Shown piece after piece: positions 9,740 through 20,302 of a stretch of 64,000 bases of DNA (the stretch's first letter is position 1; each line of letters opens with the position of its first letter). Under the pieces are notes generated by a model that saw only the letters and a list, made by a program, of their open reading frames with translations, did not search any database and was not told where the DNA came from. The position numbers and the translations under genes were made by a program. The stretch covers positions 1 to 64,000 of the forward strand of contig VGSG01000007.1 in NCBI GenBank assembly GCA_016875095.1. Reading direction: 5' to 3'. The DNA comes from Deltaproteobacteria bacterium (lineage in GTDB: Bacteria; Desulfobacterota; Desulfomonilia; Desulfomonilales; Desulfomonilaceae).

Positions 9740-10591
9740 TTAATGTGTCAGCCCCAAAATGAGGAGCAGTTCACGAACCACTCTGGCCGCGGTAATGGCG
9801 GAAACCCCCGAAGGATCGTACCGTGGGCTCAGTTCCACCACGTCCGCGGCCACAAGATTCATAGATGTCGCGGCCCAAAGCAGGCGTTCCAGGTCGTTAT
9901 ACGACCATCCTCCCGGCTCCGGGTTGCCCGTTCCCGGGAAGCACGCGGGATCGAGCACGTCCAAGTCCAGGCTCAGGTAAACCGGGCGGCGCTCCGTTCT
10001 TCGGAGAAGCTCCTGCTCTGCCGCAGGGCGCCACGAGAGCAAGGTAAATCGGTCTCGCATCCACCCGAACTCCTCCTTTGTCCCCGCCCTTATTCCGAGC
10101 TGGATTAACCGCTCGCGCCCCACCAACTCCACAACTCGTCGCATTACCGTAGCGTGGTTGATCGCGCTGCCTTCGTATCGGTCCCGAAGGTCGCTGTGCG
10201 CGTCCGCGTGGATGAGCACAAGGTCAGGATATGTTTCTAATGCGGCCCTAACGAGCGCCAGAGTGATGGTGTGCTCACCGCCCATGCTCAGCATAGGACA
10301 TCCGGACGACATGATCCGCTTGGCCTGATCCTCGATCCTGCCAAGTGAGTTTTCGACCGAATCATTCGAGAAATCCAAATCTCCAATATCCGCAAAAGGG
10401 TGGTCGAGTAGGTCGAGGTCGAGAAGAGGTGAATACGATTCGATGGAGTCGGACGCGGCTCTTATTGCTGCAGGCGCCTGGCCGGTTCCCGGTCGATAAG
10501 TCGCGGTCTTGTCCAGGGGTAACCCGACAAGCGCGGGAGATCCAGGCATGATCGTATCCGCGTGAGCCTCAAGAAAAAGCTGCCTACTCAC
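9740..10591 (-). CDS. speB: Agmatinase (agmatine ureohydrolase)
   Basis: Agmatinase hydrolyses agmatine to putrescine and urea. The 283-residue protein keeps the dimanganese ligands of the arginase/ureohydrolase fold: GGEH at 104-107, HADAHSDL at 128-135, and SLDLDVLDP near 212. The end ELSPRYDPSGVSAITAARV is typical of the SpeB branch. It is the third gene of a minus-strand set with arginine decarboxylase and spermidine synthase, 27 bp after speE, which strongly supports agmatine rather than arginine as substrate. Confidence 0.95.
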   Translation of the reverse strand: MSRQLFLEAHADTIMPGSPALVGLPLDKTATYRPGTGQAPAAIRAASDSIESYSPLLDLDLLDHPFADIGDLDFSNDSVENSLGRIEDQAKRIMSSGCPMLSMGGEHTITLALVRAALETYPDLVLIHADAHSDLRDRYEGSAINHATVMRRVVELVGRERLIQLGIRAGTKEEFGWMRDRFTLLSWRPAAEQELLRRTERRPVYLSLDLDVLDPACFPGTGNPEPGGWSYNDLERLLWAATSMNLVAADVVELSPRYDPSGVSAITAARVVRELLLILGLTH

Positions 10592-10618: not shown

Positions 10619-11479
10619 CTATTGCCTGGAGAGCGCTCTGCGCACGAACGCGGGCGCCGCGAAAGCCGCTCGGCGAATCTCCTCCGTGTAGTATTCAAGC
10701 GTCTGTTCCAGCGCCGGCGAGAGTTCCGAGCACGGTCCTTTTATGGGATCGACCTGGTCGGAACAGAGTGTGAAGGACCAAAGCCCCCCCGGATAGCACG
10801 GAACAGTAGCGAAATAGGGATACACGCGGCTGTCCCCGAATACTCCAGCGAGCTTGCCGACCGCCTCCAGAAAGACCTCAGACATGAAGACCGGACTCTC
10901 CGTCTGGAACACCGCGGCTCCGCCGTCGCGTAAAGCCGCTTTCACAGACTGGTAAAACGACGTCTCGAACAGCGTCTTAGCCGGGCCGACCGGGTCGGTG
11001 GAATCGACCAGGATAAGGTCAAACTCGCCGGCGTGCGCCTTCACAAAGGCGGCGCCATCCTCAAACAACACCTGGACCCGCGGATCGTCGAGGCCCGCTG
11101 CAATCTGAGGAAGGAACTCTCTGCACGCATCGACTACCATCCGGTCGATCTCGCAGAGTGTGACGGATCGCACTTTGGGATACTTGACTATCTGAGTGAC
11201 CGCTCCGCCGTCACCACCGCCTATCACCAGGACGTGGCTCGGCGCGGGCAGCGCGCTCATCGCGGGATGAACGAGCATTTCATGGTAAATCGCAGCGTCG
11301 CGCTCGGTAAGCATGTAGCAGCCGTCGAGTATGAGGGCGCGGCCCATGAATTCGGTTTGGAAGATCTGCACGTTCTGGAATTGCGAAACTTCGTCAAAGA
11401 GCTTTGTCCGGTAACGCAGCGCAAACGCGGACCTGTTCTCAAAGACCTCAATGAGCCACTCTTTATCATTCAGGGACAT
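10619..11479 (-). CDS. speE: Spermidine synthase (polyamine aminopropyltransferase)
   Basis: The enzyme moves an aminopropyl group from decarboxylated S-adenosylmethionine to putrescine. The 286-residue protein shows the SpeE core: a Rossmann GGGDGG at 87-92, YHEMLVHP near 65-72 and the catalytic VDSTDPVGPA near 157-166. Its start overlaps the end of the arginine decarboxylase gene by 10 bp, indicating translational coupling. The S-adenosylmethionine decarboxylase needed for the donor is not in the window. Confidence 0.96.
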   Translation of the reverse strand: MSLNDKEWLIEVFENRSAFALRYRTKLFDEVSQFQNVQIFQTEFMGRALILDGCYMLTERDAAIYHEMLVHPAMSALPAPSHVLVIGGGDGGAVTQIVKYPKVRSVTLCEIDRMVVDACREFLPQIAAGLDDPRVQVLFEDGAAFVKAHAGEFDLILVDSTDPVGPAKTLFETSFYQSVKAALRDGGAAVFQTESPVFMSEVFLEAVGKLAGVFGDSRVYPYFATVPCYPGGLWSFTLCSDQVDPIKGPCSELSPALEQTLEYYTEEIRRAAFAAPAFVRRALSRQ

Positions 11480-11940
11480 AGCGCCACCGCAGCAAATACG
11501 GTCCCTACCCGTAGGACCCGGTGGGAGATCCCAATGCTCTTAATTTCCTTAATCTTGAGGCCCCTGAGCGCCTCCATTGATTCGCGAACCATGTCGCGTG
11601 CGCGCTTTTCGCAGGCTTCGAGCTCTCCGACGCATGAGTGCTCCATTATGACCCCAGCGGCAAGCGAGTCTTCAGGAATGCCCACGGCAACCGCCGCGGA
11701 AATCACCGTCCCCGGCTCTGAAGACGCTCGTTCCGCGTAAGCGAGCGGCACGAATGAGCCTTTGGGAAATACGCGCCGGTCCACGTGTACTGCGGCTGGT
11801 GGAAGAATGCTGCTCATCCGTATCAGATTGGTGTCTCCGATCCCGGCGTCGAGTAGAGCCGCATCGAAAGAGGTCAATTCGGTGGAAGCATCCCCCTTGC
11901 CGCACGTCAGAAAAAAGCTCCTGGGGAGGGGTCCGAACAT
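11470..11940 (-). CDS. pdaD: Pyruvoyl-dependent arginine decarboxylase
   Basis: This 156-residue proenzyme converts arginine to agmatine. In the PdaD family the chain cleaves itself between two serines and the second becomes a pyruvoyl group; here the family motif MSSILPP places them at Ser43-Ser44. A GIGDTNLIRMSSILP run and a later conserved E-rich region fit the archaeal/bacterial family. Bacteria more often use PLP enzymes (SpeA), so this is the alternative route. Together with speE and speB it completes arginine to agmatine to putrescine to spermidine. Confidence 0.93.
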   Translation of the reverse strand: MFGPLPRSFFLTCGKGDASTELTSFDAALLDAGIGDTNLIRMSSILPPAAVHVDRRVFPKGSFVPLAYAERASSEPGTVISAAVAVGIPEDSLAAGVIMEHSCVGELEACEKRARDMVRESMEALRGLKIKEIKSIGISHRVLRVGTVFAAVALCP

Positions 11941-11970: not shown

Positions 11971-12954
11971 TTACCCGGTGTCTCGGAATCTGCCTTGTGG
12001 TCGAAACCTGGTGAGGCCCACCTGCTGGGGAGGCGGCATACCTGGGCCACGGCCCCGAGAGAGGCGCACATAGGTCAAGAAAACCGTCACACTACTGAAA
12101 AGAACCGCGAGTGTCAATGCAAGGAGAGGCCCCCAATAAAACCATTTCTGGCTCTCTTCCACAGCGTGTTCCAACTTCTCCAACCGCCTGAGGGCTCGGT
12201 CATACTTGCGCTCCAAATCCTTCAGAGCTGCCGGATCTACCGTGGCGACTGCGGTCCCGGGGACTGCGGTCTTGATTGTCTCGGGCGGAGGCGCGGGGAG
12301 CGGTGGCGGTTCGGGAGCTTGGGCCGCCACCGAAAGTTGGGAAACGGTGTCATTCGCGCCGGCCGTCGTCGGGGCGTCCTCCCGGACCGGCGGCTCCGAG
12401 GACTGCCGAGACAGAGCTTCGGAGTCGCTCACTGGATTTGCCCGCGGACGGTCCAAAGCGGGCGGAGGCTGGAGCACCACCGGCTTTCCATCGAGCCATA
12501 ACTGAACGACCCTGTGCCACGGGGCTTCCCCGAAGAGATTCCTGTTCGACCGGTCTCTCAGAACAAAGGAGAGGGCTTCCGACCATCTTGCGGCAAAGGT
12601 CCCACTTTGCGGATCGAATCCTCGATGAGTCTCCATCGGCCAGCGTCTCCCCATCTCCCCCGGCGCCCTCTCCCACTGGATGGAAAGCTGACGCATAGCC
12701 CGGACCTGCCCCCCTCGCGGGATCAACAAACGCACTTTCACCTGGTCAAATTGCTCGTCACCCTTGATCTTTTTTACTTCTATGGAGGCGGGAGTCTTGC
12801 CAATGAGCAATTTGGGCACAAATTCACCGGCTTGGTCCACAATACCCGCGACGACGCTATCGGACGCCGGGGTCGGCATCTCCAGGACCACCAAAATAAG
12901 ACAAAGGGTAAACGAAACGAGGAGGGCTATTCCGCGCGGATATCTTGCCGGCAT
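11971..12954 (-). CDS. Envelope protein of unknown family, shorter tandem paralog
   Basis: A 327-residue protein with a signal peptide (residues 9-28), an N-terminal domain, a Pro-rich linker (about 165-240), a short coiled coil (LKDLERKYDRALRRLEKLEHA) and a transmembrane helix at about 275-297 with a basic tail. The N-terminal domain is homologous to that of the upstream gene: both have GxFVPK, a FDxV/IxVRL segment, an N-L-F motif and DGKPVV in the same order. It starts 28 bp inside the upstream gene, so translation is coupled. It lies 30 bp before pdaD, so the pair may belong to the polyamine operon. Family and function are not recognised. Confidence 0.72.
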   Translation of the reverse strand: MPARYPRGIALLVSFTLCLILVVLEMPTPASDSVVAGIVDQAGEFVPKLLIGKTPASIEVKKIKGDEQFDQVKVRLLIPRGGQVRAMRQLSIQWERAPGEMGRRWPMETHRGFDPQSGTFAARWSEALSFVLRDRSNRNLFGEAPWHRVVQLWLDGKPVVLQPPPALDRPRANPVSDSEALSRQSSEPPVREDAPTTAGANDTVSQLSVAAQAPEPPPLPAPPPETIKTAVPGTAVATVDPAALKDLERKYDRALRRLEKLEHAVEESQKWFYWGPLLALTLAVLFSSVTVFLTYVRLSRGRGPGMPPPQQVGLTRFRPQGRFRDTG

Positions 12955-14216
12955 TGCTGAAGGATCTCTTTTCTTATCTCATCCAGTTCTTCTCGGATCG
13001 CCTCTCGGCTCCCATGGATGAACATCTCGCTCTTGGAAAGCCGATCTTCCAATACCTGAATCCTCGGCAGAATAAAGAAGATCGCGTATCCTCCGATAAA
13101 CACGATCAAGCCCACAGCAAGAATGGGAATGATCCAGAGCCAAAGGGTCACCGAAGCGGTCTCCGGTTTTGCGCGAGCGCGAGCGTCCGTCTTGGGCGCC
13201 TGATCTTTGATCGAGGCTTGGGCCGCTTCCCCGCCTGTCACCGCCGCGCCGGCGCCGGTGGTTGACCAGGCTTCTTTCTCGTTACCGGTCTCGCCCCCCT
13301 GAATTCCCGCCTCCGCCATCCGACGGAGCTCTGGCGACACCTTCACGGGGATGTTTATGGTATCGCGAACCTGGTCACGGTCATAAACCTTGACCGAAAT
13401 CTCTTTTCCGTCGAGCGCGGCCATCTCTTTGAACTCAGGGATCAGTACGATGAATATCCCTGCGTCGGAAGCCAAGGTAAACCGGTTCCACTGATTTGGA
13501 GGAATCTTGTTCTGATCAGGCTTGCGGATCACCCCGGAATAGGACAGGCCTTTGCTGGGGGCCGATACCCCGAGGATCTGATCGCGTCCTGTCCGGTTGT
13601 CCACATTGATCATCTCGCCCTTCTTGAAATTCTCCTCAGTGAACAAGATGGAACTCTTATCCACTTTTATGGAGACGTCTCTCCCTGCGCCGAGTCGAAC
13701 GGTCCCTTCCTTTTCCTGAAAATCCTCCGAGGAGACCACGGGCTTGCCGTCTATGGCAATCGTGAACAGGTCTGCGGGATCCTTGCCTTTGAACAGATTT
13801 CTTGTCGTCTGATCCAATATTTTGAGCCCAATGGATTTCCCCATGCTGTCCTTGAAGATTTTCTCCGCGGGATCGTACCGAGGGCCGGTAAGGGGCATCG
13901 GCTTGCCCGCCTTGTCTCCGGGGCCGATCCACTGCACGTGAAGGAGCGGAACATTGCGGATCAGAGCCTGATTCTTCGTGTTCAGGCGCACCGCAATGCT
14001 GTCGAATTTGTCCTGGAGAGTGACCTTCCTGATCACGACCTCTTTGTCTTCGACAGTCACAGTGACCTTTGGCACGAACTTTCCGCTCGAGTCCTTGACT
14101 CCGTATGTCTCCGACCACCCCGGGGTCGCATGGGCAAGCAGACAAAGCGACAGAAAGATGAATAGGCGGGAGCTGCCAAGGAGACTCGCCACGGGCTGTA
14201 GGAAGCTCAGGCTCAT
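12927..14216 (-). CDS. Envelope protein of unknown family, longer tandem paralog
   Basis: Chosen start ATG 14216 follows AAGGA with 5-nt spacing and yields 429 residues; a longer frame to 14306 lacks this. A signal peptide (residues 13-35) is followed by the same domain as in the downstream gene (GKFVPK, FDSIAVRL, NLFKGKDP, DGKPVV). A second beta-rich, possibly Ig- or cupredoxin-like domain at about 165-300 is missing from the shorter paralog. A transmembrane helix near 365-390 and a charged cytoplasmic coiled coil (KSEMFIHGSREAIREELDE) end the protein. It may be a surface sensor or scaffold; that is inference. Confidence 0.75.
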   Translation of the reverse strand: MSLSFLQPVASLLGSSRLFIFLSLCLLAHATPGWSETYGVKDSSGKFVPKVTVTVEDKEVVIRKVTLQDKFDSIAVRLNTKNQALIRNVPLLHVQWIGPGDKAGKPMPLTGPRYDPAEKIFKDSMGKSIGLKILDQTTRNLFKGKDPADLFTIAIDGKPVVSSEDFQEKEGTVRLGAGRDVSIKVDKSSILFTEENFKKGEMINVDNRTGRDQILGVSAPSKGLSYSGVIRKPDQNKIPPNQWNRFTLASDAGIFIVLIPEFKEMAALDGKEISVKVYDRDQVRDTINIPVKVSPELRRMAEAGIQGGETGNEKEAWSTTGAGAAVTGGEAAQASIKDQAPKTDARARAKPETASVTLWLWIIPILAVGLIVFIGGYAIFFILPRIQVLEDRLSKSEMFIHGSREAIREELDEIRKEILQQCRQDIRAE

Positions 14217-14277
14217 GTCGGTCCTTGCGAAGAAAGCCAATGCCGTGAAAGCACAGGCGTTTCTTATAGTTGCGTCC

Positions 14278-14306
14278 AGTTTAGCAGGGAGCTTACGGAA
14301 AATCAA
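14278..14306 (-). promoter_or_regulatory. Putative promoter for the envelope/polyamine gene set
   Basis: On the minus strand TTGATT (14301-14306), a 17-nt spacer and TAAACT (14278-14283) precede the gene starting at 14216. It overlaps the space used by the divergent promoter at 14316-14345. Confidence 0.42.
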
Positions 14307-14315
14307 TTAATAAGT

Positions 14316-14345
14316 TTGAAGCAACAAGAGTCTTTTACTTATAAT
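14316..14345 (+). promoter_or_regulatory. Putative sigma-70 promoter
   Basis: TTGAAG (14316-14321), an 18-nt spacer and a perfect TATAAT (14340-14345). Transcription from about 14352 would exclude the upstream in-frame start at 14316 and supports the ATG at 14385. Confidence 0.6.
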
Positions 14346-17957: not shown

Positions 17958-18127
17958 CGTAGTCCCACTCTAGGGCGCCGGCATCCCTTGATACGTGAGC
18001 GGCCTCTTGCTGGGCGGCTCAAAGGAGTCCGCGGGCGCGTGATGTTTCACCGAGTGTTGTGCCCGGCGCCGCGGCCTTCCGGAAAGCGCGAAAAAGATCC
18101 GGACAGGATGGTAAAGGCCCTCTGATC

Positions 18128-20302
18128 ATGGAACAAGATGCTCAGTCGCTCCGCGAAGAGCTCTATGGAGTGATCAGCCATTACGCTGAGCTGGCCGATA
18201 TGGCCAGCAAAGGCGACGTGGATCCCATCGGCCAGATCGGCCGAATCATAAAGAAGAGATTTCCCTATCTATTGTGGGTCATACGAGACCTCCTCCCGTT
18301 GCTTGAGCGAGGTGTGATGACCTATTACGATCTGCTCTTCAATCTCATCAGGGCGGCTCAACAATTCCCTGACCTTGCAACCCTCGCGGACAGTCGAAAA
18401 GAGATAGAAAAGATCGAGCAAGACTCCAAGGCTCTCATATACGCGGTGAAGTGGCTTGATTCCAAGAGCAACGTCAGGCCCACCGTCCAGGACCTGGAAC
18501 AGATTCACAACACCTTATCCAGACTCAACACCAAGTATAGGGTCAAATACGCTCCGGACGCGAGTCCTGATACGACCATTATTCCCTTTCTCGTACGCGG
18601 AGAACAACCGCTCTCCGAGCAAGCGGACGTGGCCAGGACAGCCGAGCAGGTTCGCCGCGCGGTCATCGAACTGCACCATCTTATGCTCCAGGAGGCGCCG
18701 TCCCGTTCCTTGTTCTTTTTTCGGAAAGATGGGAAAGACGAGATGGAGCGCGAGCTTGCTGAGCTGGCGCGGTTCCTCTTTCGGTGCGGTTTTTCCGTGG
18801 ACCGGATCGCCGGAGGATATCACAAGGGCAAGCTCACGGATTTCCTCAATGGTCATATACTCGATAATCTGATTAATGGAGCGGACTTCGTTCGGGGCTT
18901 GCAGGGTCTCTCCTTTCATCTCGCGCAGATCTCTCTGGTGGATTTTGCCGCCTTCTTCGAAATCCAGGCCGACTATTGCAGCTTGGAAGACCCCAATGAG
19001 GTGCTCGCCCGCATAAAGCTCATGAAGAAAAAAGGTCGCCGCGGAGCTGACCTCCTGGAGAAAATCCTCACGCTCTATAAACGCTATGGGACGACTCAGC
19101 AGGGGAGGCTGGCCCAGAGATTTCTTGCTTACCGTTACAGTTCGTCCTTCGGCGACTACTACGGAGACCGTCGCCAACACGAGCCGAGGCTGGATCAAAC
19201 GATTGAGCTGTACAAGCCTCTGGTGGAACGTTCCGCGATGGACAAGCAGGTCATGGAGGATCTGGACCAAAATGCGCAGGTCTACAGCTCCAAGACCAGG
19301 GAACAGATGGCCGAGCTCATCAGGCTCATCGCCGACTCCTTGGAGCGCCCGGATTCGGTCCGCGGCATCAAGGTCAAAGTGCTCGGCGAGATCTCTTCCG
19401 GGGCAATGGGTCAGGTCTGCCTCGGGATTTTTCGAAAGAGAATAGTGGCGCTCAAGACAGTGAAGTCGCAGATTGCCGGCGGGTTTGCCGAACCGGTGGA
19501 GCTGCTGAAATACGAGGCCGCGATGCATGCTGCGGTGCAGACTCCGGAGCAGCACCCCAATGTGGTGGAGTACTACGGACTGGTCGACCAGCAAGGCGAA
19601 ACGATCATGATAGGCGGATACTATCCGAGTGACAGCCTCACCCACTTTGTGGAGCAGGTCTGGACCGAGAAGCACAAGCCGCCATTCGCCGTTCACAGCA
19701 GATTGAACCTCGCCATCGTCGAGACGATGGTCAACCAGCTCCTGGAGTGCTTGAGGCACATGCGCGGCAAAGGCGTTATCCACCGGGATCTCAAGACCGA
19801 CAACGTCCTTTATCTGGTCGATCGTGACGGCAAGCCGAGCCGTCTCAAACTCATAGACTTCGGCGTCGCGCTCTCTGTGGGCCCCGGAGCGGTGGCCGAT
19901 CTCTTCAAAGGTAAGGTGGTCGGAACGTTCTCCTACATGGCCCCGGAGCAGGCCAAAGGCAAGAGCGTTTTTCAATCGGACCTGTTCAGCGTTGGGGTGA
20001 TTTTCGTCGTGCTCCTGACCGGCAAACTACCCATGGTCTTCCACAAGGCTCGATCCCGGCAGGAACTTGTTCAGCAGCTCGTCAGAATAGAGCGAGAGCC
20101 AAGGCCGTCGGCGGCGCGACTAAACCCGTGGCTCAAAAGAAATTCCGCGCTGGAGTACATTGCGGCCACGGTAGATCGGATGCTCGACCTGGATCCTCAC
20201 AGTCGGCCGGAAATAGAAGAAGTGCAGAACAATTTTCGTGACGTGTTCGAGCAACTGGGCCAGGAGAAATACAACATCAGCATCTTTTATCACAAGGACT
20301 GA
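18128..20302 (+). CDS. Large protein kinase with long uncharacterised N-terminal region
   Basis: From the ATG at 18128 the protein has 724 residues. The first 420 are mostly helical and not recognised. From about residue 420 a Ser/Thr-type kinase domain begins: a Gly loop EISSGAMGQV, VALKTVK, the catalytic HRDLKTDNV near 554-562, DFG near 579 and APEQ near 605, so the active-site residues are all kept. No membrane helix is evident. An alternative GTG start at 18059 adds 23 residues. Its last 13 bp overlap the convergent ABC-F gene. Together with the kinase at 2979 this indicates substantial Ser/Thr signalling. Confidence 0.87.
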   Translation: MEQDAQSLREELYGVISHYAELADMASKGDVDPIGQIGRIIKKRFPYLLWVIRDLLPLLERGVMTYYDLLFNLIRAAQQFPDLATLADSRKEIEKIEQDSKALIYAVKWLDSKSNVRPTVQDLEQIHNTLSRLNTKYRVKYAPDASPDTTIIPFLVRGEQPLSEQADVARTAEQVRRAVIELHHLMLQEAPSRSLFFFRKDGKDEMERELAELARFLFRCGFSVDRIAGGYHKGKLTDFLNGHILDNLINGADFVRGLQGLSFHLAQISLVDFAAFFEIQADYCSLEDPNEVLARIKLMKKKGRRGADLLEKILTLYKRYGTTQQGRLAQRFLAYRYSSSFGDYYGDRRQHEPRLDQTIELYKPLVERSAMDKQVMEDLDQNAQVYSSKTREQMAELIRLIADSLERPDSVRGIKVKVLGEISSGAMGQVCLGIFRKRIVALKTVKSQIAGGFAEPVELLKYEAAMHAAVQTPEQHPNVVEYYGLVDQQGETIMIGGYYPSDSLTHFVEQVWTEKHKPPFAVHSRLNLAIVETMVNQLLECLRHMRGKGVIHRDLKTDNVLYLVDRDGKPSRLKLIDFGVALSVGPGAVADLFKGKVVGTFSYMAPEQAKGKSVFQSDLFSVGVIFVVLLTGKLPMVFHKARSRQELVQQLVRIEREPRPSAARLNPWLKRNSALEYIAATVDRMLDLDPHSRPEIEEVQNNFRDVFEQLGQEKYNISIFYHKD

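Follow-up and report, generated by a model that had tools for sequence, protein, structure and literature searches.

EnvA, a core protein of the family of Desulfomonile predicted to span the membrane once, and its position beside polyamine genes

Proteins of the BatD type, which are encoded in the Bat aerotolerance operon, combine a signal peptide, beta domains, a single transmembrane segment and a cytoplasmic tail. The same general layout is seen in EnvA, the product of one of two adjacent minus-strand genes, envA and envB, in a 64,000-nucleotide stretch of contig (the window) from a member of the family of Desulfomonile. This likeness is one of layout only. EnvA gives no Pfam or NCBIfam match and no MoxR or BatA/B genes were recognised in its block.

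The envA gene (429 aa; 12927-14216) and the envB gene (327 aa; 11971-12954) overlap by 28 bp (12927-12954), the 3′ end of envA running into the start of envB, and both open reading frames are present where the initial annotation had placed them. Since the genes overlap, EnvB is probably translated with EnvA in the two genera that carry both. They lead directly into three polyamine genes on the same strand whose identities, as first named, are confirmed by Pfam and NCBIfam. A gap of 30 bp separates envB from pdaD (pyruvoyl-dependent arginine decarboxylase; 11470-11940), which overlaps speE (spermidine synthase; 10619-11479) by 10 bp, and speB (agmatinase; 9740-10591) follows after a further 27 bp. 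For envA we favour a start at 14216 over a TTG at 14306, because a conserved −10 box (14283-14278) falls within the longer reading frame from 14306.

By hydropathy each protein has two hydrophobic segments, one near either terminus. In EnvA, an approximate signal peptide (residues 1-35; 14112-14216), recognised by hydropathy in a part of the protein that is variable in the alignment, is followed by domain 1 (residues 36-168; 13713-14111), which is common to EnvB, by domain 2 (residues 177-294; 13335-13688), by a linker, and by a transmembrane segment (residues 358-384; 13065-13145) with a helix directly behind it (residues 385-415; 12972-13064). The AlphaFold check that had been proposed, run for EnvA with a 17-sequence alignment, returned two beta domains at pLDDT of about 90, a disordered linker (306-353) and a helix (354-426), with a mean pLDDT of 76 and a pTM of 0.37 for the full length. 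Both domains are confidently predicted to be beta-sandwiches. EnvB consists of a signal peptide, a homologue of domain 1 (12460-12864; pLDDT 91, pTM 0.85 in the AlphaFold model), a linker, a short coiled-coil-like stretch preceding the membrane segment, and a basic tail; it has no second beta domain. Hydropathy for both proteins and AlphaFold for EnvA thus agree with the initial annotation on a shared signal peptide, linker and C-terminal transmembrane helix, and the extra beta-rich domain assigned to the longer protein is the second beta domain of the EnvA model. The charged C-terminal tail that had been given to both proteins holds for EnvA, where it is long and helical, but not for EnvB, where the tail is short and basic and the coil lies before the membrane segment. 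The post-membrane helix is the most conserved region of EnvA, with a mean pairwise identity of 71.5% and 8 of 31 columns invariant; the two beta domains reach 51.5% and 60.8%, and the linker 18%. From the signal peptide, hydropathy and the AlphaFold model we infer that EnvA is bitopic, with its beta domains predicted to be periplasmic and its helix cytoplasmic.

EnvA and EnvB are homologous in their first domains, which BLASTP aligns over 150 aa with 28% of residues identical (E=4e-16); together with the AlphaFold models, this upholds the earlier view of the two as paralogous envelope proteins with a common domain. When the 4.7 Mb assembly was searched with either protein, the sole match above chance was the other, and EnvB gave one further match at chance level (E=0.54). 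In a tree of domain 1 the two EnvB sequences, on a long branch, lie outside all EnvA with 100% support, and EnvB is therefore no recent copy of the neighbouring gene. Neither protein matched a known family in Pfam or NCBIfam at the curated cut-offs or in PADLOC at significance, no solved structure was found when the EnvA profile was run against PDB sequences, and no relatives were found in plasmids and viral contigs.

By fold, domain 2 appears to resemble the Ig-like domains of the ASH, PapD and MSP type. When the full-length EnvA model was run against the PDB with Foldseek, the matches were Ig-like proteins of several domains and, in alignments of about 114-130 columns, domains of the ASH and PapD type. 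We assign the latter to domain 2 from the length of the alignments and by elimination, the query being full-length and the output carrying no residue ranges. The third ASH domain of Spd-2 was matched with a probability of 1.00 and a TM-score, by target length, of 0.61; the OCRL ASH domain and the Caf1M chaperone were matched as well, and EnvA domain 2 is predicted to be a beta-sandwich of the same general fold. Identity to these domains is at most 14%, they belong to other proteins and contexts, and the likeness is structural only. Separately, an ankyrin-repeat protein of one genome (G014) ends in a sequence relative of domain 2 (L043:10003-10344; 28% identity, E=5e-12), and the domain has therefore moved between proteins.

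EnvA was found in all 18 genomes, and all 11 genera, of the family (two of the loci, L024 and G001:C198, are apparently one and the same 31,761-bp contig). A 17-sequence profile gave no match at a meaningful E-value in 24 genomes of the sister family of the same class, one hit at E=0.28 containing stops, and none in the non-family genomes of a 395-genome sample of the phylum. For EnvB the searches yielded just two genomes, the window genome and G015 (locus L040), from 2 of the 11 genera. By these searches EnvA is a core, family-specific protein and EnvB an accessory paralogue.

Upstream of envA we find a conserved promoter-like site on the minus strand, with a −35 box TTGATT (14306-14301), a 17-bp spacer and a −10 box TAAACT (14283-14278). 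Of 17 genomes, 16 have a TTGATT-N17-TANNNT site at a distance of 76-109 bp upstream of the envA start, and the remaining one (L032) has this site too, farther upstream of the chosen start. Across the family the promoter can be summarised as TTGATT-N17-TARRAT. The −35 box is embedded in a 20-bp element, AAACTTATTAATTGATTTTC (14298-14317, minus strand), which is conserved in the family and has a single copy in the window genome. Allowing up to two mismatches, this pattern occurs once each, always at envA, in 15 of the 18 genomes, and the sole extra match, in G005, carries two mismatches. The element persists at a locus (L039) in which the aminotransferase gene that otherwise flanks envA has given way to a transposase gene and other sequence. 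This DDE_5 transposase gene (L039:2-1159) lies upstream of envA, in the position that the aminotransferase gene has in the relatives. The promoter calls, here and below, are consensus matches backed by conservation rather than mapped transcription starts; on this basis envA is predicted to start at its own conserved, single-copy promoter.

The class I/II aminotransferase reading frame is divergent from envA, on the plus strand, and starts at or after 14316; it has a promoter-like site of its own (TTGAAG-18-TATAAT; 14316-14345, plus strand). The two sites stand back to back in 14278-14345, a distance of about 10 bp separating the −35 boxes, and much of this short divergent region is conserved across the family. 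The envA leader (14217-14277) carries a conserved AAGAAAAGCC-like stretch directly after the promoter. A leader hairpin suggested by single folds was rejected: RNAalifold gave no consensus structure, and covariation of the helix in question was not clearly above that of shuffled alignments. Rfam gave no match on the window and five loci.

The initial annotation had linked EnvA and EnvB to polyamines. In this reading the two would sense polyamines in the periplasm or stabilise the surface jointly with them, and would be co-expressed with pdaD, speE and speB. The check for co-occurrence in other genomes bears out the adjacency itself, as envA lies beside pdaD in 17 of 17 testable contigs from 11 genera of the one bacterial family, and envA without pdaD was found in none of the 18 family genomes. 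However, the order gmk-degP-speB-speE-pdaD-envA-aminotransferase-rsmE-TPR is conserved family-wide, and other pairs are kept about equally (speE-pdaD 17/17, aminotransferase-rsmE 15/15, gmk-degP 11/11, envA-aminotransferase 15/16); the envA-pdaD adjacency is therefore real but unspecific to that pair. A large protein with a Ser/Thr-kinase domain is encoded at 18059-20302 next to a TPR gene, an adjacency kept in only 5 of 10 testable contigs. Most genomes have 105-360 bp between envA and pdaD. This gap reaches 1233 bp at one locus (L026:5670-6902), where it contains inverted repeats, possibly of a small mobile or repeat element; an envB remnant was considered for this gap and rejected, with no tblastn match to envB and no long reading frame. 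Promoter-like signals that would allow separate transcription also weigh against a polyamine role, since in addition to the envA promoter there is a TTGCGC-N17-TAAATT-like site directly before pdaD in six genomes of the best-sampled genus (g4), and a TTGACT-N17-TATATT site before pdaD in another locus (L038). In the two envB genera, by contrast, the envB-pdaD gap is only 30-31 bp and no promoter match was found in it, which is a point in favour of co-expression; because of this short gap, read-through from envA into the polyamine genes is likely in the window genome and G015. Outside the family, 13 sister-family genomes have pdaD beside speE and/or speB and all are without envA, and an envA-pdaD link outside the conserved block or in other lineages was not found in the 24 sister-family genomes or in the non-family part of the 395-genome phylum sample. 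One such sister-family cluster (L091:5715-11666) holds genes for a solute-binding protein and a cupin/HTH regulator, then speD, pdaD, speE, speB and a phosphorylase-family gene. In the window genome speD, which is required for spermidine, is outside the cluster on a different contig, and no polyamine-binding family was recognised by Pfam or NCBIfam. We therefore consider a dedicated polyamine role unlikely. Since envA has its own conserved promoter, the link is probably positional, reflecting inherited gene order with separate transcription and no shared job.

Two further readings start from the envelope itself. Domain 1 could be a carbohydrate- or wall-binding jelly roll, making EnvA and EnvB receptors for wall or surface polysaccharides. 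Its best Foldseek neighbours, weak ones obtained with the EnvB model, recurrently include many CBM32 and CBM51 folds, APC10/DOC1 and related galactose-binding-like folds, but no match reached E≤1e-3, the best E-value being 2.5e-3, and TM-scores were below 0.5 among the matches listed. Such values do not amount to family membership and no sequence family was matched, so that we regard this proposal as improbable. Lower still do we place a structural role in an envelope feature special to the family, in which the cytoplasmic helix would serve for anchoring. A collar-like wall invagination is described as setting the genus Desulfomonile apart (PMC7773648), and a protein that is universal in the family and restricted to it would suit a part of this kind; yet the collar has been documented in a single genus rather than across the family, and none of the genes in the block was recognised as one for cell division or the wall.

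We favour, at roughly even odds (about 0.5), the reading of EnvA as a single-pass envelope adaptor with its own promoter that is not dedicated to polyamines, with EnvB as an accessory paralogue. EnvA would be exported, a disordered stalk carrying its two beta-sandwich domains in the periplasm, while the strongly conserved amphipathic helix would be located in the cytoplasm, so that an envelope partner or ligand could be coupled to a cytoplasmic partner. It would be expressed from its own promoter, the polyamine genes being neighbours in an inherited block, and EnvB would be an old accessory paralogue that retained domain 1 only. The anatomy, homology, distribution, promoter conservation and synteny behind this scheme were computed; the adaptor role and the independence from polyamines we infer, and the envA-pdaD junction, unbroken in 17 of 17 testable contigs, argues against that independence. 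A bolder version is doubtful, though conceivable: that EnvA founds a signature family of transmembrane adaptors, with a domain-1 fold that has no close solved relative, a uniquely conserved single-copy promoter and a lineage-specific envelope function. EnvA does represent an uncharacterised, lineage-restricted family, and one whose general kind is ordinary.

Adjacency to pdaD alone would have led the annotation of this locus astray, towards polyamines. Found in 18 of 18 genomes within the family of Desulfomonile and in none beyond it among those searched, EnvA offers a clean signature gene for that family, and its conserved, predicted cytoplasmic helix is a concrete bait for partner searches.
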